From the IMG/VR virus record IMGVR_UViG_3300005836_000042, positions 1-64,000 of that record: 64,000 bases of DNA; one strand, written 5' to 3'. Of the stretch, positions 17,734-46,094 are shown piece by piece; position 1 is the first letter of the stretch; every line of letters begins with the position of its first letter. The position numbers and the translations under genes are program-made. The DNA is from a virus. Below the pieces are notes generated by a model. The model saw nothing but the letters and a program-made list of their open reading frames with translations. It was not told the DNA's origin and did no database searches.

Positions 17734-18444
17734 GTGCCGTACGCTCTCGTCGATGATCTACTCAGGGACGTTGCGAGCCACTACGATGACACCGATGCGA
17801 CGGCATTCGTGTTGCCGACGTCCAAGCTCAACCGCTATCTCCATTACGTTCAGCGGACGCTCGACGAGATCTACAACTTCAAGCCGTGGCCCTGGAAGAT
17901 GGCGTACAAGACGTTGCAGTTCAACGTCAGCCCAGCGAACGGCAGGGAAGCTGCGGTCCCCAAAGACTTCGCCAATGTAGGACCGAACGGAGCGCTGTTC
18001 GACCCACGGGGAGAGCCGTGGGCCGAGATCTCGTTCCGGGACATGATCGCGCTCCACGCCAGTGGCTCTGGCCAGTCGAACCACCTCTTCGCGGTCGGGA
18101 GAAGGCAGGCGGACGCTTCTGCTGCGGTAGGGGATGGTGGGATCAAGAACGCCGACTCCAGGGGCCTGCTGATCCCGGATCCCAACCGAACCGACGTCTT
18201 CACGCTGTTCTACGAGACGTCACCGCCCAAGGCTGCACTCGGGGCGGTCATCCCCATCCCCGAGTCGATGCACAACGCTCTGCTGTTGGGGACGGTGGCG
18301 AAGCTCCAAGAGGGAAAGGCTGATCCACGAGACATCTGGCGGGCGGAGTACGTGACTGCGCTCTCCAAGCAGGTTGCTGCGCTCATGCCGTTGACGTCGA
18401 GGATGCGGCAGATGCCGATGACGACAGGGAGGCGAATGTGGTGA
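17734..18444 (+). CDS. Head-to-tail adaptor protein (candidate)
   Basis: The 236-aa protein starts VPYALVDDLLRDVASHY and continues with a helical segment containing RYLHYVQRTLDEIYN, then a beta-rich insert. This helix-insert-helix plan, and its slot after the capsid genes and before tail genes, fits podovirus adaptors that dock under the portal. The C-terminal tail (TSRMRQMPMTTGRRMW) would thread towards the tail. Its end overlaps the next start. Confidence 0.6.
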   Translation: MPYALVDDLLRDVASHYDDTDATAFVLPTSKLNRYLHYVQRTLDEIYNFKPWPWKMAYKTLQFNVSPANGREAAVPKDFANVGPNGALFDPRGEPWAEISFRDMIALHASGSGQSNHLFAVGRRQADASAAVGDGGIKNADSRGLLIPDPNRTDVFTLFYETSPPKAALGAVIPIPESMHNALLLGTVAKLQEGKADPRDIWRAEYVTALSKQVAALMPLTSRMRQMPMTTGRRMW

Positions 18445-19232
18445 AGAAGGTTCTTGCAGGGCTGGCACTCCTGCTGCTGGCTGCGCATCCGGTGGGAAGC
18501 GCAGAGGCGGTCCAGAGCGCGTTTGCCTACAACATCGACGTCGATTCAGCGACGGTCACGTACTTCAAGCACGTCGGTCAGAATGGGTCTCCCTTCGGAG
18601 GCTCGATCCTGGGGCCGGGGACCATCAAGACCACGGGCTCGTCGACTACTGTTGCGGAGGCGGTGGCAGGGAGCAACCCCTTCACCGACATCGCAGTTGG
18701 TGATGTTCTCGAAGTGGCGCCGATCGGCACCAGCGGGCGGAGAACCTACCTGCGGGTGGATGCCCGAGCGAGTGCTGCCTCCATCACGGTGGACACCGCA
18801 GTCGATCTTGGGACCGGAGTGGCGTGGCGCTACTGGAGGCTGCAGTCTGGGACCACAGTCAACGATGGGTGGTTTCCTGTCAGCGGGGCAACGAGCGTCA
18901 CGATCGGGGTCTACTGGGTCCAAGGAGATCTCGATGCGTTGCAGGTGATCTGGCAATGCAGGAGCGCAGCTCCAGGATCGAAGCCAATGCAGGTGTTCCC
19001 AGGGCTCACCTCGGAGTGCGGCTTGGGGGGCAGTGCTGCGACGGTTCCCGGCTTCTGTACCTATCCGGTTGCGCAGGTGGGCCAAGCGACCGCGACGACA
19101 GTGCAGATCGTCTTCGGCAACTACTCGGAGTGCCGCGTGGGCTTGAAGTACACGACGACTGACACCAGCGATGCCGGGGCCAACCTGGAGAAGGTGATGG
19201 TCACCGTCGACACTTCGCGGAGCACTCCATGA
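18438..19232 (+). CDS. Exported protein in the tail gene cluster, 264 aa
   Basis: GTG at 18438 has GGGAGG five bases before. The N-terminus is a standard Sec signal: VVKK, then the hydrophobic LAGLALLLLAA, then a likely cleavage after GSAEA. The mature part is beta-rich with Ser, Thr and Gly and five Cys in the second half (CRSAAPG, TSECGLGG, PGFCTY, YSECRVG), as expected for a protein oxidised in the periplasm. It is first of three consecutive signal-bearing genes. It may be a secreted surface or receptor-modifying protein, or a structural protein that matures outside the cytoplasm. Confidence 0.75.
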   Translation: MVKKVLAGLALLLLAAHPVGSAEAVQSAFAYNIDVDSATVTYFKHVGQNGSPFGGSILGPGTIKTTGSSTTVAEAVAGSNPFTDIAVGDVLEVAPIGTSGRRTYLRVDARASAASITVDTAVDLGTGVAWRYWRLQSGTTVNDGWFPVSGATSVTIGVYWVQGDLDALQVIWQCRSAAPGSKPMQVFPGLTSECGLGGSAATVPGFCTYPVAQVGQATATTVQIVFGNYSECRVGLKYTTTDTSDAGANLEKVMVTVDTSRSTP

Positions 19233-19720
19233 AGCGGGCCGCAGTTGTAGTGAGCCTGCTGCTTGCAGCAGCTCTCAGCTCATCACAGGTCCGTCCGATT
19301 CCGCCTGCTGATGTAGTCCCAGCGGCAGGGCCTGCAACTGCGCCGGTGGTGCCTGCTGACTTCACTGCCCCGACTTGCAACATTACTGCCCCAAGCACGG
19401 GTCCGGTGGCTGGGTTGTCTACCGTCGTCAGCGTGACTTCGACGGATGCTCTCAGTGGGGTGAAGAAGGTGACCTTCGCTTGGGTCTACTGTGCTGCGGT
19501 TGGAGCATGCGACCAGGTTCCTCCGAACGTGGAAGTGCAGACGGACTTGGTCCCGAACCCAGACACGACAGGCTCACCCTACACGTCGACCTGGACCTTT
19601 CCTGCATGTGGTCCATACCCTAACGACAGGTTCATGATCGTGGCCTACTGTGAGGACAACGGGGGGAACATCGTGCGGGTACGGGTTGACGACTTGCGGT
19701 TGACGGGGAGGGGATGTTGA
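19229..19720 (+). CDS. Exported Ig-like domain protein, 163 aa
   Basis: ATGA couples it to the gene before. Residues 1-19 form a signal peptide (MKRAAVVVSLLLAAALSSS). A Pro/Ala-rich linker follows, then an Ig-like beta-sandwich: DFTAPTCNITAPSTG with VVSVTSTDALSGVKKVTF is the Big/HYR-type sequence pattern seen in bacterial surface proteins. Cysteines are paired along the domain. Surface adhesion or binding to host glycans is inferred. Confidence 0.75.
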   Translation: MKRAAVVVSLLLAAALSSSQVRPIPPADVVPAAGPATAPVVPADFTAPTCNITAPSTGPVAGLSTVVSVTSTDALSGVKKVTFAWVYCAAVGACDQVPPNVEVQTDLVPNPDTTGSPYTSTWTFPACGPYPNDRFMIVAYCEDNGGNIVRVRVDDLRLTGRGC

Positions 19721-20985
19721 GAAAACTGGTAGCTGGGCTCTTCTTGCTGGCGGCTCCTGCTGCTGCGCAGGTTTCCTCCATCCCTCCGCAGTCTTCTTCA
19801 GCTGGTGTAGGGACTGAGGCGGTTCACCTGACCCAAGCCTGGACGGCACCTGCGTACGGTTCCGAGCTGGTGACGAATGGCACCTTCACTGGCAGCGCGA
19901 CTGGGTGGACGCTCGGTGGTGGAGGGGGCGCACCGGACTGGGCCTACGCGGCAAACGCTGTCTCACACACGAGCGGCGGCGGAACGGCAACGCTCACGCC
20001 TTCGACGCCAATCGTTCCATCGGTCGGGACCGACACGTTCTACATGATCACCTTCACCCTCTCTTCGGTGACGAGTGGAACGCTGACGGTTAGCTTCGCT
20101 GGAGGTTCAGCGACCTACCGCGACAGTGGGACCTACGACACCTTCTTTGGTGTGGCCTCCACTGCCAACTTAGCATTCACTCCAACGAACGACTTCGCTG
20201 GGACCATCGACGACATCTCGGTCAAGACCGCGACGAAGGCCAGCTCGGCGTTCAGCATCCCGCACAACACAGGGTCTGATGGCATTGTCGAGCTGCGGTC
20301 GAAGGGAAACGACCTCTACTTCGGAGCGTGGTCTGCCCCATGGGCAAACGCGAACACGTACTGGAACGTGACCCTCGGGTGGGGCGCTGGATTCAACTTC
20401 GGCGGCGGCGGGCCAGCGGTTCTCAACCGCGACAACGTCTGCATCGGCACCGACTCCTGCAACTGGTCGAGCCGCCTCAACGACAGCGTCTTCGTTGGTG
20501 CCTTCGCAGGCAGGTTGGTGTCGGGCAACAGCGCGAACAACACGGCAGTCGGATCTGGCGCGCTTCAGCTCTACCCCACCGGAGCCATCGTGAATGGCGA
20601 CACGATGATCGGCACCAGCACGGGGCAAAACTGGAATTCGGACAACAGCACTTGCGTGGGATACAACAACTGCATAACCGGCACGGCTCTCAACAATGTC
20701 ACCGTGCTCGGCTACAACATCACCCCCGTCACCGCCAACACCGCAGTCGTTGGCAACGGGAGCACCACCGATGTGTGGATCGGGGATGCTGACGGCTCAG
20801 GTGCTGCAGCCGCGAAGCTCCACACCAAGGGCATCGAGGACACGGGTACCACGTTTGCCTCGCTCGGGACTCCAGCGAACGGGACGCTGATCTACTGTTC
20901 TGACTGCACGATCGCGAATCCTTGCGCCGGAAGTGGTACTGGTGCGTTCGCCAAGCGTCTCAACGGCGCCTGGGTGTGTAACTAG
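19714..20985 (+). CDS. Exported adhesin-like protein with YadA-head-type repeats, 423 aa
   Basis: The signal peptide ends in AAPAAA before QVSS, a clean AxA site. Residues about 50-170 form a beta domain like a carbohydrate-binding module (GSELVTNGTFTGSATGW). Residues about 250-320 carry YadA-head-like repeats (DSVFVGAFAGRLVSGNSANN, TAVGSGAL, NSTCVGYNNCITG, NNVTVLGYNI), which form left-handed trimeric beta-rolls in adhesins and some phage fibres. The C-terminus is Cys-rich (CSDCTIANPCAGSG). A fibre with a Sec signal is unusual. Alternatives are a secreted decoy or an adhesin displayed by the host. Confidence 0.78.
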   Translation: MLRKLVAGLFLLAAPAAAQVSSIPPQSSSAGVGTEAVHLTQAWTAPAYGSELVTNGTFTGSATGWTLGGGGGAPDWAYAANAVSHTSGGGTATLTPSTPIVPSVGTDTFYMITFTLSSVTSGTLTVSFAGGSATYRDSGTYDTFFGVASTANLAFTPTNDFAGTIDDISVKTATKASSAFSIPHNTGSDGIVELRSKGNDLYFGAWSAPWANANTYWNVTLGWGAGFNFGGGGPAVLNRDNVCIGTDSCNWSSRLNDSVFVGAFAGRLVSGNSANNTAVGSGALQLYPTGAIVNGDTMIGTSTGQNWNSDNSTCVGYNNCITGTALNNVTVLGYNITPVTANTAVVGNGSTTDVWIGDADGSGAAAAKLHTKGIEDTGTTFASLGTPANGTLIYCSDCTIANPCAGSGTGAFAKRLNGAWVCN

Positions 20986-21452
20986 TGACAGAGGACATCT
21001 TCCGGGTGCTGGTGAAGGAGGAGGGGATCAAGCTCGATCCCTATCGCGACCACATGGGCTGGTGGACGATAGGCATCGGGCACCTGATCGACCGCAGGAA
21101 GGGTGGTGGGTTGCCTCCGTGGGTGAAACCCAGCTTCCCAATCACTCAGACTGAGGCCGAGGAGATGTGCCGTGACGACATCGCCACGATGGGGGTTGGG
21201 CTGAAGAACCAGCTCCATTGGTGGGAGAACACGAGCGACGTCGCCAGGAGCCTGCTGGTGCTGATGGCCTTTCAGCTGGGGGTTGGTGGAGTTCTTGTCT
21301 TCAAGCGGATGCTGGAAGCTGTGAAGGGTGGGGATTTCGATCTTGCGGCGAAGGAGATGCGGGACAGCGCGTGGTGGCGGGTGCAGACACCACAGCGTGC
21401 TGAGCGCATGGCGCAGGCGATGGAGACGCAGTCGCTGAGGGGGTTGCTCTAA
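20985..21452 (+). CDS. Endolysin, T4-type lysozyme (GH24 muramidase)
   Basis: The 155-aa protein has the catalytic triad of phage T4 lysozyme in order: Glu13 in KEEGIKL, Asp22 in YRDHMG and Thr28 in WWTIGIGHL. It cleaves the MurNAc-GlcNAc bond of peptidoglycan. No signal peptide is present, so release depends on a holin; the membrane protein at 24652-24864 is the nearest candidate. GTG overlaps the previous TAG by one base, and the stop overlaps the next ATG (TAATG). Confidence 0.92.
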   Translation: MTEDIFRVLVKEEGIKLDPYRDHMGWWTIGIGHLIDRRKGGGLPPWVKPSFPITQTEAEEMCRDDIATMGVGLKNQLHWWENTSDVARSLLVLMAFQLGVGGVLVFKRMLEAVKGGDFDLAAKEMRDSAWWRVQTPQRAERMAQAMETQSLRGLL

Positions 21453-21766: not shown

Positions 21767-22488
21767 TGGCGCACAGCGATCCGTACGAGGACTGGAAGGA
21801 ACAGGGCAGGCCCGGTGGCAGCTACGAGGCGTGGCTTAGCGGGCAGACGACTGCCGCGACGGATGCTCCACAAAAACAGAACATCGCCCTACCTCAGACG
21901 GCTCAGCCTGCTGAGCAGAAAGCGGGGATCGGTGGCCCAGGCTGGAACGAAGACTTCGACCAAGCATGGGCGCGGCGCGTCCTTGACAACTCTCAGCTCA
22001 AGGATGCGTTCGGGCTCTCCGACACCTCGTCGCTGCGTGACGAGGAAACACGCAGGCAGATCAACCGGTGGCTTCGTGAGCACCGTGGAAGCGGAAGCGA
22101 TAGCAGCCCTGCCGCAGCTGGAGCGACGACTGCAGCTGCAGCGGTTCCTGCTGCTGGCAAACCAGCTAGCACAACTGGCACAGGAGCTGGGGCGAAAGCA
22201 CCGACTCAACCCACCGGCACGACGGGGAAGGCTACCGTCGTTTCTGGAAAGGAGACAGCAAGCGCTCAGCAGGCTCCAAGCTCGGGTCACCTCATTCTAG
22301 GTGGGGTTCGCCCGCCAATGGGACTCGTCTACGGGAACACGGTGGTGCCTGCGGCAGGGGGCTCGATCCCTGCGCTCCAGGGACCCTGGTGGCCGTCGTA
22401 TCCTCCAGGGAATGCCGCTAAGCTAGCGGTTCGACCGGGTACTGCATCAGCGCAAGCTGCAGCCCTGACTGAACAAAGGGGGACGTGA
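21766..22488 (+). CDS. Ala/Thr-rich hypothetical protein, 240 aa
   Basis: The N-terminal 110 residues are charged and helical (NEDFDQAWARRVLDNSQLKD). The middle is an Ala/Thr/Gly linker, and the C-terminus contains LILGGVRPPMGLVYGNTVVP. No membrane span. It overlaps the lipoprotein gene by a TGATG junction. Function unknown; a structural or assembly role fits the context. Confidence 0.55.
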   Translation: MAHSDPYEDWKEQGRPGGSYEAWLSGQTTAATDAPQKQNIALPQTAQPAEQKAGIGGPGWNEDFDQAWARRVLDNSQLKDAFGLSDTSSLRDEETRRQINRWLREHRGSGSDSSPAAAGATTAAAAVPAAGKPASTTGTGAGAKAPTQPTGTTGKATVVSGKETASAQQAPSSGHLILGGVRPPMGLVYGNTVVPAAGGSIPALQGPWWPSYPPGNAAKLAVRPGTASAQAAALTEQRGT

Positions 22489-23621
22489 TGCGGAAGAGAA
22501 CGTGGGTGTTCGCGTGGGCCTGGACGGTCGGGGCCACTCTAATTACGGGGTGCAGCACCGGGGGGCATCCGCAGCCTCCGCAACCCCCGGAGCCTCCGCC
22601 GCCGACACCGCAGTGCAGTGAGGGGCAGAGCTACAGCTGCTGGCACCGTCCTCCTGGGAACGAGTGGCTCTACGCCTGTCCGGTCTACAACTCGGCTGGA
22701 CAGGTGGTGGGGATCCTGAACGTCGCGGGCGGGCCTGCGCAGTGCCCGAAGCCGCCGACTGAGCCTCCGGTGGAACCTCCGGTTCCTCCGCCTTCTGGGA
22801 ACTACTTCCTTGACGACGAGGCACTGTCGGTCGTGGGGCCTGCCTCCAAGAACACCTGGAACAAGACGTGGGAGGCGCTCCAACAGTGGAAGGCTGCGAA
22901 CCAGGACAAGTTCCGAAACGAGAACTGCCTCAAGGCGGGAGGAGCGGGGATCGACGATGCCTACGACGGCATCGGTGCGCTTCTTCGGTCGAAGGGGTCC
23001 GACGCAGGACAGTCGATCGACGACGGCGGAAAGAAGTCGGACTGCATCTTCGTCAACGACTCGGGGAACGTCTACGAGGAGAACCACCTGTTCGAGTACG
23101 GGGGTGGGTGCTACTCGACGTCGAGCAGCTCGATCAAGAACGCATGGCGATACTCCGGTGGTGGAACGACTCCGCCGCCTGTTCAGCCTCCGCCGAGCAG
23201 TGGAGACTGTCCGCACCAGCCCTGTCCGATCCACGAGTGGACTCAGGCGACGTTGCCACCGGGATGGGATCCTGCGCTCGTGGGCTCTCCTGCGGGACTG
23301 ATGAACTGCAACCCGCATGGCTCGGGAGCTGACAAGGACTGCACACCGCTCGCGCAGCGGCAGGAGCCATTCTGCGCAGCGATCGGCATGAGTCCCTATG
23401 CGGACGGTCAGCCAAGAAACGACTGCCCCATGAGACCGGACGGTCACCCGGAGCGGCTCGACATGGAGCTGTGGTTCCTCTACGGAGGCTGGAAGCGGGA
23501 GGGAAGGAACGGGCAGGACTGCACTCCCGCGAAGTCGGAGAGCCAAGCCTCGATCCTGAACGGGACCGGAAACTGCCGCATGTGCAACGCCAAGGGCACC
23601 ATGTGCTCACCGTGGTTCTGA
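22488..23621 (+). CDS. Phage-encoded lipoprotein, Cys- and Pro-rich, 377 aa
   Basis: ATG at 22488 has a G-rich SD about six bases before; a GTG three bases earlier is possible. The N-terminus is a lipoprotein signal, MRKR, then a hydrophobic core, then the lipobox LITGC with Cys22. A Pro-rich spacer follows (QPPQPPEPPPPTPQC), then a Cys-rich domain and a second Pro linker. The C-terminal part has spaced Cys (NGQDCTPAKSES, NCRMCNAKGTMCSPW). It should be acylated and displayed on the envelope. Superinfection exclusion, an outer spanin-like role, or host surface change are possible; the size is far above classical outer spanins. Confidence 0.75.
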   Translation: MRKRTWVFAWAWTVGATLITGCSTGGHPQPPQPPEPPPPTPQCSEGQSYSCWHRPPGNEWLYACPVYNSAGQVVGILNVAGGPAQCPKPPTEPPVEPPVPPPSGNYFLDDEALSVVGPASKNTWNKTWEALQQWKAANQDKFRNENCLKAGGAGIDDAYDGIGALLRSKGSDAGQSIDDGGKKSDCIFVNDSGNVYEENHLFEYGGGCYSTSSSSIKNAWRYSGGGTTPPPVQPPPSSGDCPHQPCPIHEWTQATLPPGWDPALVGSPAGLMNCNPHGSGADKDCTPLAQRQEPFCAAIGMSPYADGQPRNDCPMRPDGHPERLDMELWFLYGGWKREGRNGQDCTPAKSESQASILNGTGNCRMCNAKGTMCSPWF

Positions 23622-24865: not shown

Positions 24866-26191
24866 ATGAAGCAGCCCCGTCAAGGTCGGACGTTCGAGCG
24901 TCTCAACGGTACGGACGGGTTTGCCTGGGGAGGGATCGCCACCAAGGTCGACCCTGCAGGCAACCCGCCGGAACGCCCCCGAGACACCGTCAACGTCCGT
25001 CATCAAGGCGGGGTCATCGTCTCGCGGCCTTCGTTCAGGGGGGACGGAGTCTTCATCCCCCTGATCCCGATCCACTACCTGAAGACGCCGAGTGCTTCTG
25101 AGAACCCACCGTTCGTGGTGACCAACCGTGCGCGGTGGGTTCCGCATTGGCTGGCCGAGCACAACAATGCTGCCGGGGTGAGGCTGTGGTGCATTGCTGA
25201 GGCAGCGGTGCCCAACGACTTCGCTCGGATCATGTTCATCGACACCGATGCGGACCTGTGCGTCCAGACGCTGGCCTCGATCAGGCAGCAGCAGACTGGG
25301 CATACCTTTCCGATCGAGAAGTTCGACAACGAGATCTACTTCGGGGACATCAACGGGCTCAGGAAGCTCTACTTGATCCCGTCGCGGGAGGGAGACAACT
25401 CGCCTCCGATCGACACCGACCAGATCGCGGACGACGTGATCGTCTCCACGCCAGGGTTCCGGGTGGCGGCGCTGCAGAGCCATGCTGGGCTTCTGTTCTT
25501 CGCCATCGCAGGCTCGCCCGTGGGGGAGATCTACGCCTGGGATGGTCAGAGCGTGGGGTTGGAAGTCGCGATGGTGGGCAGCTCTGGCGACGTGGGCTGC
25601 CACATGGCGGTCTACAAGGACACCCTCGTCGTTGCGGTTCGGGACTACATCGGGGCCGGGCAGGGAGCCTTGCTCGTCAGAGACGCGACAGGAGCATGGA
25701 CGACGCACACGCTCGCGAGCTTCAACGTCTCACGCTACCCCAACAGCATCGTCGAGTACGGGAACCTGCTTTACGTCGTGGATGGGGCTGACCAGATCCA
25801 TACCTGGGATGGGAGCAACATCGCGTTGGCCCACACGCTTCCGCTGGGGTCGAGCGCGTTGAACGTGATCGCGAAGTTGGGGAGGCGGCTCTACTTCCCC
25901 TACAGCGACGGCTCTCAGATCGAGCTGGGCTACGTCGACGATCTCGACGCAGCAGGCTTCATCGACATCGGCACGCGGGATCCGGTTCGGGCAGACACCT
26001 TGCCGCCTGTGGCCATGTCGCACTACCGGGGTAGGTTGTGGATCTCCTTCGATGGTGGTGCTGGGGCAGCGCTTGTCATGTGGCACTCCCAGCAGTTCAT
26101 GCCCTTCTCTGGCTGGCAGTCATTTGGGGATGATCAGGCCTTCACGGATGAATCCATCTCCTACCTGATCACCAACATGAGGAGCCTCTAG
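24866..26191 (+). CDS. Beta-propeller-like tail protein, 441 aa
   Basis: After an extended N-terminus the sequence shows repeated four-strand-like units with Trp-Asp turns (GEIYAWDGQSVGLEV, DQIHTWDGSNIALAHTL, GRRLYFPYSDGSQIELGYVD, RGRLWISFDGGAGAALVMWH), which is typical of a propeller. It overlaps the next, larger propeller-like protein (TAG/GTG). Together they probably make the tail nozzle or a hub below the adaptor. Confidence 0.65.
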   Translation: MKQPRQGRTFERLNGTDGFAWGGIATKVDPAGNPPERPRDTVNVRHQGGVIVSRPSFRGDGVFIPLIPIHYLKTPSASENPPFVVTNRARWVPHWLAEHNNAAGVRLWCIAEAAVPNDFARIMFIDTDADLCVQTLASIRQQQTGHTFPIEKFDNEIYFGDINGLRKLYLIPSREGDNSPPIDTDQIADDVIVSTPGFRVAALQSHAGLLFFAIAGSPVGEIYAWDGQSVGLEVAMVGSSGDVGCHMAVYKDTLVVAVRDYIGAGQGALLVRDATGAWTTHTLASFNVSRYPNSIVEYGNLLYVVDGADQIHTWDGSNIALAHTLPLGSSALNVIAKLGRRLYFPYSDGSQIELGYVDDLDAAGFIDIGTRDPVRADTLPPVAMSHYRGRLWISFDGGAGAALVMWHSQQFMPFSGWQSFGDDQAFTDESISYLITNMRSL

Positions 26192-30996: not shown

Positions 30997-33900
30997 GTGG
31001 GAAGCCTTCCTCCCGACGTCAGAAAGATCCTCGAAGAACAGGGGATCATCCCGCCTGAGCAGGAGGCCCCGGAGGACCGTGGGACTCAACTACTCAAGGA
31101 GCTGGGCCTCGCTCCTGAGCCGACCGAGACCAGCATCTTTCAGCCGATCCGTACGGCGTTCGGTGCGACTCAGGGAGTTGGGGGGAAAGCGCTGGGGGTT
31201 CTCGCCCCCGAAGCCTACGCGGCAGCAGAAGCGGAGCTGCGCAAGAACCTGGGAGTCACCGAGCAGAGTCCCTGGTACAAGCAGGTTGAGGCTTCGCCGG
31301 GGCTGGGGGATGTCGGTGCGCAGCTCGTCCCGGAGTCGGTTCGGCAGAGCAGGCTGGGCACAGCACTCGGGCCGGTGGGGAGGCTCGCGGGGAACATCGC
31401 AGGCGACCCGACGACCTATACGCCGTGGGCGTTGGGGAAGCTCAGCTCTGGGATCGTGGCGGGGATTCCTGAGGCGGCTGCTGTGGCGGAACGCGCAGCG
31501 CAGGCGGAGGCGACGAGAAGGGCGTTCATCGGTCCGCTGACCAAGACGATGGAGGTCGCCCAGAACGTCGACCGAGCGAACGACGCGCGGGCAGTTGTCG
31601 AGGCGGTCAGGGCGAATGCAAGCCCGCTGACGCGCAGGGTCTTTACTGCTGGGAACGTGATCCAGTCTGCGGAGCCCTACGCGCTTGGAACGGCTGCGGC
31701 GCTGGCCTACGGACCCGAAGCCTTGAAGAGTGCCTACGAGGGATGGAAGCAGGTTGCTCAGGGGATCACCGAGCAGCCGGTGCTCGACACTGCTGCAGAG
31801 GCTGCGAACGCCACGCTGCTGACAGCGCTCACCGCCATGATGGGCCACGGCCTCATCTCGACGGGAGAGGCGATGATTCGGCTGCGCCGCCACCTCGCGG
31901 AACAGCAGCCTGCTGTCGAGCGCGCGATCAACGAAGTTGGGGGGAGGATCGAGCAGGCTGTGGAGGCGGCTACTCCGAAGCCGCCTGAGAATCTGACCCA
32001 GACGCGGGACTGGCTGGCCGAGGGCGAGGCGATGCTCCGTCAGCGAGAGGCTGACCAGGGGCTTGCTGCACGGAGGTTGGCCGAGGCGGACCGGGTGGTT
32101 CCTCCTGAGCGGCCCAAGCCTCCGGTGCCCGAGGAGCCGCCAGTCCTCCCTGAGGATGCTGTCTCGCTCGTGGCCGAGCCGATCGTCGAGAGGGGTCAGC
32201 TCCCAGCAGAGGTCGAGACCTTCCTCAAGGAGCCCGGCAACCAGAACAGCGTGATGCTGCAGAAGCGGTTCAAGGTGGGCCGCACGCAGGCGGAGAGGTG
32301 GTTGGACACGTTCCAGAAGAACGCTCCGATCCTGCCTGAGTCGGCGGTGACGGCGGTGGAGGGCGAGCCGCTGGTGCCTGCCACCCTGGCCCCCCGCGAG
32401 CGCCCCCGCCCGCGTGCACCGAGGGAACCGGTCCTCCCGGAGAGCGCGGTCTCGTTGGTGGCGGAGCCCATCGTCGAAGAGCCCGTTCGAGCACCGGAGG
32501 CTCCGCCCAGCACGCTGCCCGCAGCTGAAAGACCTGGTGGGCTCACCCCCGAAAAAACGGCTCCAGAAGTCACTGAGCCACAGGCATCTACGGAGCCGGT
32601 TCTGGAGGCCAAGCCACCTGGTCAGGAGCCTACCCCACAGCAAGCTGAGCCTACGCCTGCCCCTACTGGGCCTGAGGCTCCACCAGAGCCCGCCGCAGCT
32701 GCTCCTGTGGTGGAGGAGCCGCCCCGGCCCGCTCCAGAGGCTCCTGCGGCAGCCACGGAGCCGCCGAAGCCAGAGGACCGTGAGAACGCTGTCCAGTACC
32801 TCCTCAAGCAGGGGGACGACGAGCTTGCGCGGGAGCCTGCCGTCGCGCGGGTTTTGCGCTCTATCTTTGGGCTTGGGAGCCGGAAGCGGGAAACCGAGAC
32901 GGACATGCGGATGCAGGCGGCAGCTTCTGAGGTTCTGGAGACCCCGGAGAAGCGAGCCAAGCTCTTGGCGCGTGTACAGGCCATCATCGAGAAGGCGCAG
33001 AAGGTTGGAGAGGAGGTGGACCCCAAGGCCATCCAGAACGAGGTGGCAGGGTTCATCCGGCGGGAGGCTCGGGAGAAGCAGCCAGGGCGGAGAGTTGAGG
33101 ATCGTGCTCAACTGCAGGAGCAAGCAGCGGTAGAGGCAGCGGAGGGGAAGCGACCCGAGGGGAAGATGGAGACCCCGAAGGCACGGAGCCCGCACCACTA
33201 CGACTACCTGAACGAGCAGCTCAGGGCTCCAGGGAGCCCGCTCCAGAAGGCAGGGTTGAAGAGCGTCAGCGAGCTGGTCGAAGCGCTGCGGCCCCAACTC
33301 GAAGCTGGCAAGTTCCCAGCAGGCTGGGTGCAGTCCTTCGCGGACTACGTTGCAGCGCGCGACAAAGGCGCGACTCATGCGGATGCTGTGAAGGCTGCGA
33401 TGGACGCTCAGAACGCCCGAGGTGGGAAGTGGTCCTCGCCACAGGCAGCGGCGAACGCTCTCAATCGAATCGGAAGTCGAGCAGGAGAGCTACTTCGGGA
33501 GCAGTGGGGTGGGGAGAAGCCTGTTCAGGTGGAGGGGCGCAGAGCCCCGACGCCACAGGAGCTTGACGAGCTTGGCAGGGATCGGCTCGACATCATCTCC
33601 CACATCGAGAACGCAGTCAGGACGGGGAACAAGGAAGAGCTGTCGGCAGGGTTGGGGGCGTGGCTCGCACACGTCGAGCGCAGGAAGGTGTTCGACCTGA
33701 AGCGGGACTACACCTTCATGAGGCCGCTGAAGACGATCGCTGACCAACTGAACGCGCTCGGGGATGGCCCCAAGATCCCGGCTTCTGCCTACAAGAATGC
33801 TACGCAGCTTGCTGAGGCAATCGCCCGGAACCGGGGCATCGTCATCAAGGAGCTGAAGCCCAGGGTCGAGGAGAAGCTCGCTCCAGCGCGGGCGGCTGAA

Positions 33901-36900
33901 GTCGCGCGCTTGCGGGCGCCCGCGCAAGGAAAGAGGACGCGCGGGCCGGGCGGGTTCGAGCCGATCCAGCCTCGTGGTGATGTCAAGCACATTCGCTACA
34001 AGGGGCCGGGCGATACCTACATCTCCTTCATCGAGAACGAAGGGATCGCGGGGGTGGAGAAGTTCAACCCCGACGACTTGGCAGGGGTGCGGGAAGCGCT
34101 TTCCCGGCTGCGGGAGGACTCCGACGTTCGCATCATCGACGCTGGTGAAGTCCCGAACAAGGCTCTGGACGTTCTGCTGAATCCAGAGGATGGAAAGCTC
34201 CCGGCGTTCATCGAGGACCCCGATGCTCCTGAGGGAGTGGACCGGCTGATCCGGATCGGAGCCGAGCAGAACCGCATCGCGGAGATGGCAGCGCGGGATG
34301 CGTACGGGATCCCCACCAGCTGGGAGACGCGGCTCCGGGCGGCTGACCCGGATACGTGGGCAGATGCGTGGGGGGATGAAGCTCGGGAGCACCTCGATGA
34401 CGCGCGCGGGCCGATGCTGCAGATCAAGGTTCAGCTGGAGAAGTTGGGGATCAAGGGCACCGACCTGAACCAGCCAGTCAAGCTGATTGGCTATGGGCGC
34501 TACCACAACGTCTATGAGATCCCTGGTGCGAAGGACGCTGATGGGCATGGGCTCGTCCTCAGGGTGGGAGCACTCCCGGACATGCCGCTGCCCAAGCCTG
34601 AGCAGCGGGCGTTGGTGATCCCCACCATCGAGAAGGGCGTGCTGTTCATCAACAGCGCCAGCGGCGAGCCGATCCATTACACGGTCCACCCGAAGGTGGA
34701 GGCGCTGGGGGCTGAGCTGGGGAAGTACCCTCTGTCGCAGATCGACAAGGAGGGGCGCGCGAGCGCGATGCTCGAAGCGGTCACTCCTGGGTCGCAGAAG
34801 GAGCCCTTCCATCCTGGGGCGGAAGCCGAGGCCGAAGCCTATGCGGTGCTCTACGACTGGCTCCCGCAGGGAGTCACGCTGCAGGAGTTCCTGAGCGATG
34901 CGGCTACGCTGCTTGGGAAGGCTGCTTCCAGTGGGCTGGACGTAGCGAACGACGTCGTCTCCTACGAGCCGCATGGGGAGCTGATCGGGGGGATCCGGGC
35001 GCAGCAGTTCGCCTACATGCCGGTGAAGGCTCTCGACACGCAGGGAGTCGGCAGGGTCATCAACGGCAAGGCCCATCAGCTCGTCGCGATCGACAAGGGA
35101 CTCCTGACACCTTGGGGGGCTGAGGCCAAGGCAGACCCGTTGTGGGGTCAGATGCAGGAGGGGAACCGCATCGCAGCGTCGAGGACCCTCCCAGACAGCA
35201 GGCTCACGCTGGAGGAGAACGCTCGCAAGCATCTCCACTACGACGAGGACGCACGGGATGCGGTCGAGATCGACGAGGGGTTGGTAAGCGCAAACCACGA
35301 TCGGATGGCCAGCCAGGGGTTCGTCGATCGGCACGGCGAGCTGGGTGTAGGCGCAGCCAGAGCGCTGCGGGATGTCGTGGATGATCTGACGCGGACGATC
35401 AATGCCACGCTTGGAGAGGGCGATGCTCCGCTTGCGGTCGGCTTCAAGGGGCTGACGTCCAGTCCGTTCCTCCGGGGGCTGTACCACGAGGTGCCGGGCG
35501 AGGAACGAGCGCACATCTACGCCAACGTCGTGGAGGCGGTGAACGGATCTCACGGCAACTACGAGAGAGCCGTCGACGACCTGGTCTACGCGATGGTTCA
35601 CGAGGTCGCCCACAACAAGTCGAAGGGTCATGGATCCTCCTTCCAGACGTGGGAAGAGTACGTTCGTCACCACATCGAGGCGTCGAAGAAGATCGATCAA
35701 TACCGGGAGATGGTGAAGAAGGGCTTCACCAAGGAGGACTATCACGCGATTGCTGACGAGCTAGTCCCCGAGTTCCAGCGGCTGAGGAGGGCGAATGGCA
35801 ATCAGCGACGAGCAAGCTGGCGGGAAGCTGCCCCTGTCGAGGGAGTACCTGCTGGGGGTGTTGAGGGCCGCGCTCCGCCCCTCGCGAATCGACCCGGACG
35901 AGCTACGGAAGGTGCTGCGCTTGATCTCGCAGGCGGGGTTGAACCCGGTGGAGCTGTACCGGGAGGCGGTGAAGGAGCGCCCGGAGGGGTACGACCCGCC
36001 ACCGTTGCTGGCGAGCCTCCTGCCTCGGGATTTGCCGAAGCAAAAGCAGCTCGACCTGCAGCTGGGGGAGACCCTCTCCAAGAGATCAAGCAGCGAATAG
36101 CTGAGTACGGCTCCTCTCCGACGAGTGAGGAGAAGGCCAAGAACCTGTTGTCCGCGATGATGGAGGCGCACCAGAGGTCTGGCGGAGGTGCTCCGACGCA
36201 CGACGCAGTGTTCAACTGGGCCTACCAGCTGGCGGGTGATCTGGTCAAGGTGATGCACCCGAATGATCTGGAAGCTCGTGCAAGGAGCCTGCCCTACCCC
36301 AGGAAGCCCGATCAGATGCACGGCGTCGTGAACATGCTCCACAACGTCGACCTTCCTGTGGAGACGAAGGCGCGGATCCAGATCACGGGTGAGCTGACGA
36401 AAGGCTTGTGGCCAGCAGACCATCCGCAGCGCTGGGACCAGGTCGAGAAGGAGATGCACGATGTTCTGGGGCTTTACACCCCGGAGCAGTGGGCACAGCA
36501 CTACCGCAACCAGAAGGGTGGTCCGACCGCGAAGGACGTCCTGATCATGCGGCAGGTTGCTGACGAGCTGTACCGCAACGTGACCAGGGCGGAAGAGCAG
36601 CTCTACCACGAGCTGGCGACGAACAAGAACCTGACGCCTGAGCGTCTGGAGGAGCTGCAGCAGGCTGTGAACAAGGCCACCGGCAGCGTCGTCGAGGGGA
36701 TGCTGATGCTGACCGGCGGACAGGCCAAGGCTGGTCGGGCGCTCGCCATTCATAGGAAGGACATCCGGGCGCTCGACCCGCAGATCGCCTTCCAGCAGGA
36801 TCTTAGGGCGGCGCTCCGGGAGCGGACCCAGAGTCGGTGGAAGAACGACCCCAAGAAAGCAGAGCAGGTGGCGAACGACCTGTACGCCCGGTTCATGGCC

Positions 36901-38799
36901 GAGCGGACGTCGCAGAACCCGGATTGGGGAGCGTTCCAAGAGGCCTACCGTGCGGCGATGGGCTCGCACGTCTGGCCCGACAAGATCCTGGAGTGGTACA
37001 AGGGAGGTCTGCTGGGGTGGCCCTCGCGGGTTGCGAACATGGCCAGCAACTCCCTGCTGCGGGGCGTGCGTCTTGTGGAGGACGCCATCGCCGGAGGTCT
37101 GGACGCTACGGCCAGCAAGCTGTTTGGAAAGGAGCGGGAGATCTACGTCAGTGAGGGAGCAGTCTCGCTGCTGGCGCACAGGCGGGCGTTCGCTGAGGCT
37201 GTCCCCAAGTGGTGGCAGGAGATGAAGCGCCACATGATGCTCCAGCCCGACGATCTCAGCCGGGCGTTGGAGAAGGGTTCGATGATGGAGGACTTGCTGC
37301 AGGGAAGTGGCGCGATCCCTGGCAGGACAGGCGAGTTCATCAGGTTCCACCTCAAGGGCATGGGCGCCGACGACGCGCTGGCGAAGCACTTCATTCGGAC
37401 CGACTCGATGTACCGGCAGGTCTACCGCAAGCTCAGGGCAGGAGACAAGCAGTTCCAGCGACTGGGCAACGAGAGCTATGCGCAGGCGACTGAGCGGATC
37501 GTCAGCGACCTGAAGGCCAACTGGCGAGAGGCGCTGAACGGGGCACCGCAGTACGACTACAACAAGATTCGGATGTTCGAGCCGATTCTGAAGGAAGCCG
37601 AGGTAGCGGCGCGACGGGAGACCTTCCAGGCGGAGCTGGGTGGGACAGGCAAGTCAGGAGCGACCTTCCTGAGGAACAACCCCATCTTCCAGCTGTTCAT
37701 TCCCTTCTACCGGACGCCGATCAACATCACGAAGGAGACGTTGGTCCGGACCCCATTGGGTTTCTTGAACACGGCGCGCAACTGGAAGGACATGACCCCG
37801 GCACAGCGGACTGGCGAGCTGTCCCGCAATATCACCGGGACGCTGCTGGGCACCGGGGCGCTCGCGTACGCGATGGCAGGCGGGGCGAGCGGAGGAGGAC
37901 CAGTCGACCCTGACGAGAAAGCCATGTTGGAGACGACAGGCTGGCAGCCCTACAGCGTGAAGATCGGGAACCAGTACATGTCCTACCAGCGCCTGGAGCC
38001 GATCGCCAGCGTGCTGGGGGTTGCGGCTGATGCAGCGGAAGCAGTCCGGAACGGAGACTTCCAGAGCGCGCAGACGGGGTTCGTTCGTGTCTTGCAAAGC
38101 CTGGGAGAGAACATCACCAACAAGACCTTCCTGAGTGGGCTCGATGCGCTGTCGAGCGCGATCTCCCATCCGATGCAGTATGGGCCGAGCTTCCTGAAGC
38201 AGATGCAGGCGAGCTTGATCCCGAACTCGATCGGGTTCATTCCGGTCAGCACGCTGGCCAGAGCGCTCGACAGAACCTACCGTCAGACGGAACCCTTCTC
38301 GATGAGCGTCTTCTACGCGAAGCTGCCGTTCCTGAGCACCACGTTGGAGCCGCAGTACGGCCCCAGCGGGGAGGAGCGGCAGCGGCCTGGGACTGCACTG
38401 GAGCAGCTGATCTCGCCTTTCTCCCGGAGGACTCTACAGGAGGGTGCTGCACGGGTGGGAGCGGAAGAAGTAGTGCGGCTGGCAGCGAGCCCCAAGGCCC
38501 CGAGGAAGTATTGGGTCGCTCCTGGCGGGCTTCGGGTAGACTTCGCTCCCGAGGAGCGGAAGGCGATGGCTGTGGCCATGACCGAGGCCACGAAGTTCAT
38601 CGGGGATCGGCTGGTGAAGGACCCCAACTACATCGCGCTTCCGGACAACGAGCTGGACGCAAGGTTCCGCTTCGGCCGGAGGACCAAGGAGCAGGTGATC
38701 AAGGACACCTACTCGCGGTATCGTGATCGCGTCATGCAGCAGATCAAGCCCAAGCTGGTGCAACGAGCGAAGAAGAAGCTCTCCGAGCGAGGGACCTGA
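30997..38799 (+). CDS. Giant polyvalent-type internal virion protein, 2600 aa, with zincin motif and LPD38-like end
   Basis: GTG at 30997 follows a GAGG SD. Residues about 1-330 are Ala-rich helices. Residues about 370-600 are a Pro/Glu-rich linker in which LPE(D/S)AVSLVAEPIVE recurs. Residues 610-1100 are mostly helical. Around 1160 is a glycine-loop-like segment (LIGYGRYHNVYEI, with LVLRVG downstream) recalling a protein-kinase N-lobe. A zinc-peptidase-like motif HEVAH (1535-1539) is followed by GHGSSF. The C-terminal region (about 2220-2600, NNPIFQLFIPFYRTP, then TGTLLGTGALAYAMAGGASG) matches what is described for large polyvalent protein-associated domain 38. Proteins of this kind are thought to enter the host with the DNA and counter its defences. 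Confidence 0.8.
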   Translation: MGSLPPDVRKILEEQGIIPPEQEAPEDRGTQLLKELGLAPEPTETSIFQPIRTAFGATQGVGGKALGVLAPEAYAAAEAELRKNLGVTEQSPWYKQVEASPGLGDVGAQLVPESVRQSRLGTALGPVGRLAGNIAGDPTTYTPWALGKLSSGIVAGIPEAAAVAERAAQAEATRRAFIGPLTKTMEVAQNVDRANDARAVVEAVRANASPLTRRVFTAGNVIQSAEPYALGTAAALAYGPEALKSAYEGWKQVAQGITEQPVLDTAAEAANATLLTALTAMMGHGLISTGEAMIRLRRHLAEQQPAVERAINEVGGRIEQAVEAATPKPPENLTQTRDWLAEGEAMLRQREADQGLAARRLAEADRVVPPERPKPPVPEEPPVLPEDAVSLVAEPIVERGQLPAEVETFLKEPGNQNSVMLQKRFKVGRTQAERWLDTFQKNAPILPESAVTAVEGEPLVPATLAPRERPRPRAPREPVLPESAVSLVAEPIVEEPVRAPEAPPSTLPAAERPGGLTPEKTAPEVTEPQASTEPVLEAKPPGQEPTPQQAEPTPAPTGPEAPPEPAAAAPVVEEPPRPAPEAPAAATEPPKPEDRENAVQYLLKQGDDELAREPAVARVLRSIFGLGSRKRETETDMRMQAAASEVLETPEKRAKLLARVQAIIEKAQKVGEEVDPKAIQNEVAGFIRREAREKQPGRRVEDRAQLQEQAAVEAAEGKRPEGKMETPKARSPHHYDYLNEQLRAPGSPLQKAGLKSVSELVEALRPQLEAGKFPAGWVQSFADYVAARDKGATHADAVKAAMDAQNARGGKWSSPQAAANALNRIGSRAGELLREQWGGEKPVQVEGRRAPTPQELDELGRDRLDIISHIENAVRTGNKEELSAGLGAWLAHVERRKVFDLKRDYTFMRPLKTIADQLNALGDGPKIPASAYKNATQLAEAIARNRGIVIKELKPRVEEKLAPARAAEVARLRAPAQGKRTRGPGGFEPIQPRGDVKHIRYKGPGDTYISFIENEGIAGVEKFNPDDLAGVREALSRLREDSDVRIIDAGEVPNKALDVLLNPEDGKLPAFIEDPDAPEGVDRLIRIGAEQNRIAEMAARDAYGIPTSWETRLRAADPDTWADAWGDEAREHLDDARGPMLQIKVQLEKLGIKGTDLNQPVKLIGYGRYHNVYEIPGAKDADGHGLVLRVGALPDMPLPKPEQRALVIPTIEKGVLFINSASGEPIHYTVHPKVEALGAELGKYPLSQIDKEGRASAMLEAVTPGSQKEPFHPGAEAEAEAYAVLYDWLPQGVTLQEFLSDAATLLGKAASSGLDVANDVVSYEPHGELIGGIRAQQFAYMPVKALDTQGVGRVINGKAHQLVAIDKGLLTPWGAEAKADPLWGQMQEGNRIAASRTLPDSRLTLEENARKHLHYDEDARDAVEIDEGLVSANHDRMASQGFVDRHGELGVGAARALRDVVDDLTRTINATLGEGDAPLAVGFKGLTSSPFLRGLYHEVPGEERAHIYANVVEAVNGSHGNYERAVDDLVYAMVHEVAHNKSKGHGSSFQTWEEYVRHHIEASKKIDQYREMVKKGFTKEDYHAIADELVPEFQRLRRANGNQRRASWREAAPVEGVPAGGVEGRAPPLANRPGRATEGAALDLAGGVEPGGAVPGGGEGAPGGVRPATVAGEPPASGFAEAKAARPAAGGDPLQEIKQRIAEYGSSPTSEEKAKNLLSAMMEAHQRSGGGAPTHDAVFNWAYQLAGDLVKVMHPNDLEARARSLPYPRKPDQMHGVVNMLHNVDLPVETKARIQITGELTKGLWPADHPQRWDQVEKEMHDVLGLYTPEQWAQHYRNQKGGPTAKDVLIMRQVADELYRNVTRAEEQLYHELATNKNLTPERLEELQQAVNKATGSVVEGMLMLTGGQAKAGRALAIHRKDIRALDPQIAFQQDLRAALRERTQSRWKNDPKKAEQVANDLYARFMAERTSQNPDWGAFQEAYRAAMGSHVWPDKILEWYKGGLLGWPSRVANMASNSLLRGVRLVEDAIAGGLDATASKLFGKEREIYVSEGAVSLLAHRRAFAEAVPKWWQEMKRHMMLQPDDLSRALEKGSMMEDLLQGSGAIPGRTGEFIRFHLKGMGADDALAKHFIRTDSMYRQVYRKLRAGDKQFQRLGNESYAQATERIVSDLKANWREALNGAPQYDYNKIRMFEPILKEAEVAARRETFQAELGGTGKSGATFLRNNPIFQLFIPFYRTPINITKETLVRTPLGFLNTARNWKDMTPAQRTGELSRNITGTLLGTGALAYAMAGGASGGGPVDPDEKAMLETTGWQPYSVKIGNQYMSYQRLEPIASVLGVAADAAEAVRNGDFQSAQTGFVRVLQSLGENITNKTFLSGLDALSSAISHPMQYGPSFLKQMQASLIPNSIGFIPVSTLARALDRTYRQTEPFSMSVFYAKLPFLSTTLEPQYGPSGEERQRPGTALEQLISPFSRRTLQEGAARVGAEEVVRLAASPKAPRKYWVAPGGLRVDFAPEERKAMAVAMTEATKFIGDRLVKDPNYIALPDNELDARFRFGRRTKEQVIKDTYSRYRDRVMQQIKPKLVQRAKKKLSERGT

Positions 38800-39170: not shown

Positions 39171-39503
39171 ATGGCCTTCCAGTACAGCAGTCTCTACGAC
39201 GGTCAGCTCCCCAACGCCAAGGCCACGCTCTACACCTCGGTTGGGGAGACTTCGGTCCAGCAGATCACTCTCGTGGAGACGGGACTGTCAGCGCGGACGG
39301 TCAACATCTACCTGAAGCGGAACGCCAGCTCATCGAGGAGGCTGATCCCCAAGGATCTCCCGATGGATGGGAGCGATCCCACGACGGCGGCGGTGGTGGA
39401 GTGTCTCGATGCTCCCTTGGAGATGTCGGCTGGTGACGTGATCGAGGGAGACGCGGATACGGCAGCGGTGATCGACTGCACGATCACGGGGGCCAAGCGA
39501 TGA
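39171..39503 (+). CDS. Small tail-associated protein, 110 aa
   Basis: The beta-rich sequence (ATLYTSVGETSVQQITLVET, then ARTVNIYLKRN, then EMSAGDVIEGDADTAAVIDC) resembles a small jelly-roll or receptor-proximal domain often encoded next to fibres. It overlaps the fibre gene start by ATGA. Function inferred from position. Confidence 0.55.
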   Translation: MAFQYSSLYDGQLPNAKATLYTSVGETSVQQITLVETGLSARTVNIYLKRNASSSRRLIPKDLPMDGSDPTTAAVVECLDAPLEMSAGDVIEGDADTAAVIDCTITGAKR

Positions 39504-44484: not shown

Positions 44485-44672
44485 ACGCGGGGAGCGGGAA
44501 GGATGCGCCCGTCTCCAAAGCAGCGTGGGCAGATGTCGGTCTGACCTTCGCCTCTGTTGCGGGTGACCCTCCCAGCACCCTTGCACCGGCGGCAGGGGTC
44601 CTCGAACTTGGGCAGCCCACCAGGAATGATGCGCATCGCCTTCTTGTGCTTGGTGTCCTTACTTTTGGTCAT
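44481..44672 (-). CDS. DnaJ-type zinc-finger micro-protein, 63 aa
   Basis: Two CxxCxGxG motifs (CRRCKGAG and CPRCFGDG) are the core of the DnaJ central zinc domain, here without a J-domain. A longer upstream reading is discarded because this ATG lies inside a 14-base overlap with the peptidase gene. Such free zinc domains may bind unfolded proteins or nucleic acid. Confidence 0.72.
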   Translation of the reverse strand: MTKSKDTKHKKAMRIIPGGLPKFEDPCRRCKGAGRVTRNRGEGQTDICPRCFGDGRILPAPRV

Positions 44673-45210
44673 AGAGGTAGGTAGGGACGTCCATGTGGCC
44701 ACGGTAGAAGAACCAATGACCGGATGGGAGCGGGACGTACTCGCGCTCTGCGCGCTCGGCAGCTGAGCGCAGCAAGCTGGCTGCAGCGTCATAGGCCTGC
44801 TGGTTGTGGAAGAGGCTCCGGGCACAGGCCCAGGCAGCTGTCTCGTTCTCGCCTGCGACGGAGAAGAACTTGGTGGGCTTGGTGGCATGGCCAAGAGCGA
44901 CGTGGCAAACCTCGTGGGCAGCGATCAGGTCTTGGGCAGTGCAGGGCAGCAGGAGAGCCATGTCGTAGCGGAGGTAGATGGTTCGGTCCCAGGTGAGGCT
45001 CGACTTGACCCAAGCGACCGCTCGGGTTTCCATGACTGTGCCCTGTTGGGAGATCCCTCTTGGGGCGTCTTCGCGAGGGCGGATCTCGACCTTCATCGGG
45101 GTGGCCACTCCCAGCCGCGCTGCAGCGAGAGCAGCTGCCCGTCCGAAGTAGTAGACCCCATCCGAGCAGGCAACCGGAACGGTGAGGAACATGACGAGGA
45201 GGAAGTTCAC
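44659..45210 (-). CDS. Predicted lipoprotein zinc peptidase, ImmA/IrrE (M78)-like
   Basis: The 183-aa protein starts with a signal (VNFLLVMFLTVPVAC; candidate lipidated Cys15). A zincin motif HEVCH (99-103) is followed by ALGH and, about 15 residues later, by ENETAAWACARSLF. This is the HExxH...E-x-EA arrangement of M78 peptidases, with Glu121 or Glu123 as third ligand. Family members are usually cytoplasmic repressor-cleaving enzymes, so an exported form is unusual. GTG at 45210 has GGAG six bases upstream. A terminator lies just before it, so its expression differs from the genes upstream. Confidence 0.72.
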   Translation of the reverse strand: MNFLLVMFLTVPVACSDGVYYFGRAAALAAARLGVATPMKVEIRPREDAPRGISQQGTVMETRAVAWVKSSLTWDRTIYLRYDMALLLPCTAQDLIAAHEVCHVALGHATKPTKFFSVAGENETAAWACARSLFHNQQAYDAAASLLRSAAERAEREYVPLPSGHWFFYRGHMDVPTYLYDQK

Positions 45211-45260: not shown

Positions 45261-46094
45261 TCAGTCGTGCTTCGAGAGGCAGCCAGCTGCAGACTGGCCG
45301 GGGTTCAGCTCGAAGTGCTTGCTGCTGACCCCAGGGAACGACAGGCCACAGAGGTGGTTCTGTGCGTTCCAGCTGAGGAACCCAGGCTGAGCAAGGCAGC
45401 GGTTCTTGCCGTCGTCGCCGGGCACGTTGTAGTAGCAGATTCCGGGTGGGTCGTCAGTGGGGCAGGTGGTCGCAACCTCGCGGATCTCGTAGTAGGGCTC
45501 CCCCTTGTCGCGGACTTCTTTGGTGCACGAGTTCTGCTCCTGCTTGACGACCAGACGTCGCTGCGACTTGCTGCACTGAGTCGACACGAAGTCGGTCCAG
45601 TCCTGGATGACGCGCACGGTTTCGATCGTGCTCCAGTAGGGGGTGCAGCGGTTGCGGCACTCCGTCACCTTCGGGGAGTGAGGGTCGCTGAAGGGCCTGC
45701 CGTTGATATCGAAGTAGCAGTGGCCAGCCGGTGGTCCGCTGAGCGGCTCGGCATCGGACTGGCGACAGGCGTCGAAGCCACGGTCGAAGCCACCTCCGGT
45801 TTTCAGGGTGTCGACCTTGTCGTCCGTGTGGGCAGGGCCGTCGAAGGACGTGGAGTAGGTGAGGACTTGAGCGTAGGGAGCACCACCGTTGTACTTCACC
45901 GTCATGGTGGCGCCGCCGGAACAGGAGACCTCCCAGGCAGGAACGTCGTTGGGGGCAAAAGCCGGGGTCGCGGTGGGAACGGGTGCAGCCACGACGGCCT
46001 TGGCAGGGGGAACGACGATGGGTTTGGTGGGCAGAGGGGATTCCCCACAGCTTGCTGCGAGCAGGGCAGCCCCGAGAAGGGCACGCTTGCGCAC
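45261..46094 (-). CDS. Phage-encoded Cys-rich lipoprotein, 277 aa
   Basis: The GTG at 46094 has AAGGAGG about nine bases upstream. A signal with lipobox LAASC (Cys16) is followed by a Pro/Val/Ala linker and a beta-rich domain with many Cys (FDACRQS, TECRNRCTPYW, NSCTKEVRD, TTCPTDD, HLCGLS), which should form disulfides in the periplasm. It is tandem with the lipoprotein peptidase. Early expression of an acylated surface protein suggests receptor blocking or superinfection exclusion, as an inference only. Confidence 0.75.
   Translation of the reverse strand: MRKRALLGAALLAASCGESPLPTKPIVVPPAKAVVAAPVPTATPAFAPNDVPAWEVSCSGGATMTVKYNGGAPYAQVLTYSTSFDGPAHTDDKVDTLKTGGGFDRGFDACRQSDAEPLSGPPAGHCYFDINGRPFSDPHSPKVTECRNRCTPYWSTIETVRVIQDWTDFVSTQCSKSQRRLVVKQEQNSCTKEVRDKGEPYYEIREVATTCPTDDPPGICYYNVPGDDGKNRCLAQPGFLSWNAQNHLCGLSFPGVSSKHFELNPGQSAAGCLSKHD

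Follow-up and report, generated by a model that had tools for sequence, protein, structure and literature searches.

Predicted export of phage products encoded beside tail genes

Folding and assembly of tailed-phage fibres are assumed to take place in the cytoplasm, which makes a cassette of signal-bearing genes in a late operon an odd arrangement. To our knowledge, the fibres of described virions are assembled in the cytoplasm and carry no export signals, whereas the three proteins considered here (SP1, SP2 and SP3, the trio) have them. The likeness to tail fibres and tailspikes lies in a modular, beta-rich make-up and in the C-terminal tip of SP3, which is common to signal-less fibre-like proteins.

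Exported phage proteins encoded beside a tail gene and signal-bearing phage genes of the Q-rule type are both already known. The Lom protein is a single small outer-membrane protein. In lambda, lom lies right of J, and an exported phage product is thus encoded just after a tail gene, as is the trio (PMC12656833). However, Lom is one protein, whereas several fibre- and lectin-like proteins are found here, and the trio gave no Pfam match to the Ail/Lom outer-membrane barrel family, the only match being a marginal one of SP2 to Big_7. Phages of Porphyromonas gingivalis carry signal-peptide genes predicted to expose Gln, as the cassette does; these are, however, five prophage genes of unknown function from one host, and fibre or lectin content, a conserved lead protein and a disulfide pattern are not described there (PMC10367356). 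The Pantoea protein WceF is a secreted enzyme with a tailspike fold from an exopolysaccharide cluster (PMC7949094), and bacterial proteins with the SP3 tip (L046, L048) lie in similar clusters. WceF is nevertheless a host enzyme with a Tat signal; the trio is viral, has signals of the Sec type and showed no enzyme domain.

A conserved cassette of several genes for exported fibre-like proteins was not reported in the open-licence papers searched, and earlier reports may exist. With moderate confidence, and arguing from sequence, we propose the trio as one form of a late cassette whose fibre- and lectin-like products are exported and would act on the envelope or matrix of the host, and in the lysate.

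The late operon and the trio

The virus record measures 67,840 bases, of which the window, that is, the whole stretch of DNA analysed, takes in 64 kb. The plus strand of the window carries a late operon. The terminase-, portal-, scaffold- and capsid-like genes are named from gene order, size and homology among relatives.

6719, + strand: terminase-like gene
9035, + strand: portal-like gene
12793, + strand: scaffold-like gene
13927, + strand: capsid-like gene
17734..18444, + strand: adaptor-like gene, directly upstream of SP1; not flagged by the signal rule
18438-20985, + strand: SP1-SP2-SP3 trio, between adaptor and lysozyme
20985..21452, + strand: phage lysozyme without a signal, directly downstream of SP3 (PF00959, E 1e-11)
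22485..23621, + strand: possible lipoprotein gene (LITGC), farther along the operon; unflagged by the signal rule

Three smaller genes lie between the capsid-like and adaptor-like genes. The adaptor-like gene gave no family match in Pfam or PHROG and is named from its position; a homologue occupies the same place in five relatives. Among the genes scanned, family support was obtained only for the lysozyme gene, whose PHROG matches are to endolysin and tail lysozyme, and for the gene at 26191, with a weak PHROG match to a virion structural family. Further late genes follow the lysozyme, including one for a protein of 2600 aa (30997-38799), the relative of which in phage L015 measures 2369 aa (27% over 788 aa). 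A signal-less fibre-like gene, separate from the trio, is located at 39500; a search of the relatives for it, run without a positive control, gave no match.

The earlier note had placed three coupled genes, each with a Sec signal, between the adaptor and the lysozyme, and this description proved correct, with exact coordinates and all three genes flagged by our signal rule. The genes overlap one another and the adaptor by a few bases.

18438..19232, + strand: SP1, 264 aa, conserved lead protein of the cassette; begins with a GTG codon that overlaps the stop of the adaptor gene
18438..18509, + strand: SP1 signal sequence, with an uncertain site, VGS^AEA or AEA^VQS (rule and alignment)
19229..19720, + strand: SP2, 163 aa; signal, then a marginal Ig-like domain; 6 mature Cys
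19229..19285, + strand: SP2 signal sequence, up to SSS^QV; flagged by the rule
19714..20985, + strand: SP3, 423 aa; signal ahead of a beta-rich, fibre-like body; 8 mature Cys
19714..19767, + strand: SP3 signal sequence, up to AAA^QVSS (rule-based)
20830..20982, + strand: SP3 tip domain, with four invariant Cys (YCSDC...PC...WVC) and a pLDDT of about 95

The N-termini read MVKKVLAGLALLLLAAHPVGSAEA in SP1, MKRAAVVVSLLLAAALSSS^QV in SP2 and MLRKLVAGLFLLAAPAAA^QVSS in SP3 (^ marks predicted cleavage), the last of these containing the clean AxA site already noted before QVSS. The Gln+1 site of SP2 was read by eye, the script having put cleavage four residues earlier. By the rule, n-, h- and c-regions are present in all three signals; a lipobox for signal peptidase II was not found in the trio, and all three are of the Sec/signal-peptidase-I type.

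The adjoining lysozyme at 20985, and a gene with the SP3 tip beside an endolysin on another contig (L028), might suggest that the trio encodes lysis proteins, spanin-like or otherwise envelope-disrupting. We consider this barely credible: the trio has neither a lipobox nor a spanin family match, its products have large beta-rich bodies, and the corresponding cassette of phage L014 does not adjoin any called lysis gene.

Reliability of the signals and start codons

Signals were detected with a custom rule for n-, h- and c-regions. In its calibration, which used annotated E. coli genes whose starts were correct, the rule flagged 12/12 exported, 2/22 cytoplasmic and 0/8 inner-membrane proteins. 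In the window, 5 of the 60 gene calls were flagged: the trio and 2 of the 57 other genes, of which one is a small membrane protein, flagged at an internal start, and one a lipoprotein gene encoded on the opposite strand. Flags were also rare among shadow ORFs read from their first start (8/329) and absent from the core genes of relatives (0/52). A chance origin of the trio signals was rejected by the E. coli calibration and these controls.

A start downstream of the signal was likewise rejected for SP1 on five homologues (L003, L004, L008, L014 and L015), in which any start codon that skips the hydrophobic core would lose a conserved block. In SP1 of the window, L007 and L002, a core-skipping start is possible (codons 19, 25 and 17, respectively), and the upstream start is preferred in view of the homologues, of its overlap with the adaptor and of the GGGAGG that precedes 18438.

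The cassette in related phages

A search with the capsid protein gave seven related contigs, five of which extend past the adaptor, and in all five an SP1 homologue directly follows the adaptor. Searches with the SP1 alignment added two distant phages, L014 and L015 (terminase 34% and portal 29% identity). SP1 homologues are present on seven contigs (L002, L003, L004, L007, L008, L014 and L015), all with a signal. The genes after SP1 in these relatives are usually signal-bearing too, while their sequences and content differ, including LamG lectins and fibre-like proteins; LamG domains are clear in one member from L003 and one from L014.

The position of SP1 varies in the distant phages: it lies between a GroES-like gene and the scaffold gene in L014, and upstream of the terminase gene in L015, where the rest of the record holds one additional signal-bearing gene, in the head-tail region. 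L014 and L008 have three further cassette genes in common (47-56% identity). In addition, the stand-alone exported proteins L008_3 and L014_3 match the C-terminal domain of the longer exported proteins L003_3 and L004_3; as the domain is separate in one pair of phages and joined to an exported fibre-like protein in the other pair, the members probably act together. SP1 is the conserved lead of the cassette, and the genes behind it vary and swap domains in the manner of receptor-binding parts.

No match to SP1 was found among annotated phages, a direct search with SP3 gave no full-length relative, and a search of bacterial genomes with the capsid protein gave no prophage. The SP1 search of 396 Acidobacteriota genomes was empty and, having been run without a positive control, is uninformative. 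In L003 (13251-14342), SP1 is in frame with an upstream ORF with no intervening stop, so that a fusion or an internal start is possible. The GroES-like genes near the head genes (L014:9368-9658 and L015:12199-12522) were judged by eye.

Evidence for export beyond the N-terminus

The count of mature cysteines is even in 21/21 cysteine-containing cassette proteins compared with 39/66 controls (59%; Fisher P 2e-4), and mature cysteines are three times as frequent in the cassette proteins as in the controls; these and similar counts include homologues, which are not independent, and about ten families remain. Exported proteins with disulfides are known for such even counts (PMC7678975). In the alignment of SP1, five homologues have Cys at both column 54 and column 151 and three have it at neither (8/8), the two cysteines being gained or lost as a pair, as a disulfide would require. 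Predicted cleavage leaves Gln at +1 in 15/23 cassette proteins; the share is 5-24% in E. coli and four bacterial samples. The pattern recalls the Q-rule of Bacteroidetes, under which Gln values average 71% (PMC5837995). Gln at +1 was also weighed as a host clue, and the bacteria sampled did not settle the host.

Because disulfides alone can occur in virions without export, as in phage Milano (PMC10811340), these lines count together. The signals in 8/8 SP1 proteins, the even Cys counts, the co-varying Cys pair and the Gln at +1 make the predicted export of the trio and of the other cassette products well supported. That the N-terminal stretches are instead uncleaved hydrophobic anchors or assembly segments would be compatible with the Milano precedent and with cleavage sites that are only predicted; it is nonetheless highly improbable, since the small residues at -3/-1 of these sites and the bias towards Gln at +1 would be meaningless without cleavage, the Cys counts are even and the rule was negative on inner-membrane controls.

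Folds of the trio and carriers of the SP3 tip

The fold labels given to the trio in the earlier note held only in part. For SP1, labelled an oxidised Cys-rich beta protein, the beta part stands, as the model (pLDDT 72) is all-beta, whereas with four mature cysteines the protein is not really Cys-rich. Neither the fold nor the sequence of SP1 gave a significant PDB match, and the matches of the model to tail and fibre proteins from uncultured phages were no more than partial. The Ig-like label of SP2 is marginal (Pfam Big_7, E 7.2e-5, 23.8 bits against a cut-off of 24.1). The YadA head repeats ascribed to SP3 had no family support: Pfam gave no match, and the C-terminus is a four-Cys tip, not a YadA-like membrane anchor. 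Neither SP2 nor SP3 had a significant PDB match by sequence, and the SP3 model is poor outside the tip, a PDB search with it being uninformative. No tail-fibre family in Pfam or PHROG matched the trio. A fibre- or lectin-like, outward-acting nature of the cassette products is supported by the LamG domains in relatives, by the partial structural likeness of SP1 to phage tail and fibre proteins, and by a tip domain that other fibre-like proteins share.

The SP3 tip was found at 23 viral loci (two from one contig, and one being L014 again) and 4 bacterial loci. With one loose rule applied to both sets, signals were detected in 19/23 of the tip-carrying ORFs scored and in 12.5% of 360 other ORFs; a few of the 19 are weak, and some of their matches are not C-terminal. 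Signal-bearing carriers occur after baseplate wedge genes (L031), after the portal gene, in a tailspike-like protein with a pectate-lyase domain (L042), and among connector genes (L036), and a signal-bearing carrier of 1254 aa is encoded by an uncultured phage (MW202444). The same tip is present on signal-less fibre-like proteins (L022, L025 and L026). Two signal-bearing bacterial carriers, one in Nitrospira moscoviensis and one in an Acidobacteria genome, lie in clusters of exopolysaccharide type, among genes that look glycosyltransferase-like from their translated sequence. These two tip proteins are L046:7359-8132 and L048:6480-8156, and the tip gene of L046 adjoins a pectate-lyase-like protein.

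Possible roles of the exported products

Export and disulfide bonding of the cassette products are supported by the sequence evidence, so that the mature parts probably fold outside the cytoplasm. For cleavage, location and partners, we infer the following course. Signal peptidase I would probably cleave each Sec signal, mostly before Gln. Late in infection, the products may reside in the periplasm, at the cell surface or within the matrix of the host, where they probably bind glycans, to judge from the folds in relatives; such binding could loosen or coat the matrix, or reduce the loss of virions to spent cells and debris. An action on envelope or matrix glycans is favoured because of the separate signal-less fibre gene, the two bacterial tip carriers in exopolysaccharide-type clusters (as with WceF) and the recurring lectin domains.

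Exported proteins serve exclusion in known phages. The exported, lectin-like and variable products described here might mask the surface receptor of an infected cell, by covering it or changing it, and so exclude superinfection. We regard this role as improbable, as the genes lie in a late structural operon with no sign of lysogeny here, which suggests late action, and as the products are fibre-like, larger and more numerous than the known exclusion lipoproteins.

The signal-bearing fibre-like genes at structural-gene positions in several phages suit a role in the virion as well. The products could be virion appendages, that is, fibres that are exported, oxidised in the periplasm and joined to the tail during or after lysis. 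Within the tail region the cassette comes straight after the adaptor, as it does in five relatives. Fibre-like proteins that combine a signal with the SP3 tip follow or accompany baseplate, portal and connector genes (L031, L042 and L036), and the tip also occurs on signal-less fibre-like proteins. On the other hand, the window has its own signal-less fibre-like gene, the bacterial tip carriers are not virion parts, and SP1 lies away from the adaptor in L015 and L014; moreover, we know of no tailed phage with virion fibres matured outside the cytoplasm. We thus consider virion appendages unlikely, though worth keeping in mind, and would give the same tentative standing to the broader idea that some tailed phages finish their virions outside the cytoplasm, with exported, disulfide-bonded fibres or tailspikes docking at lysis, as a recurrent feature of uncultured phages. 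If true, attachment to the virion after export would be the more surprising outcome. If the export proposed here is true, phages would lay down an external toolkit before lysis, or virion assembly would include periplasmic steps, and the fibre genes with signals that viral catalogues contain should then be re-examined.

Further observations

A motif, [YFI]P[PSI]x, occurs soon after the signal in 10/15 otherwise different cassette proteins, SP1 excluded; it is enriched, was picked post hoc with homologues counted, and is a possible docking tag. On the minus strand of the window, a cysteine-rich protein with a lipoprotein signal (MRKRALLGAALLAAS^C) is encoded at 45261-46094, and a possible signal-bearing metalloprotease-like protein with a HEVCH stretch, judged by eye, at 44659-45210. 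The minus-strand gene at 732-1415 has, by eye only, the look of a papain-type cysteine protease.
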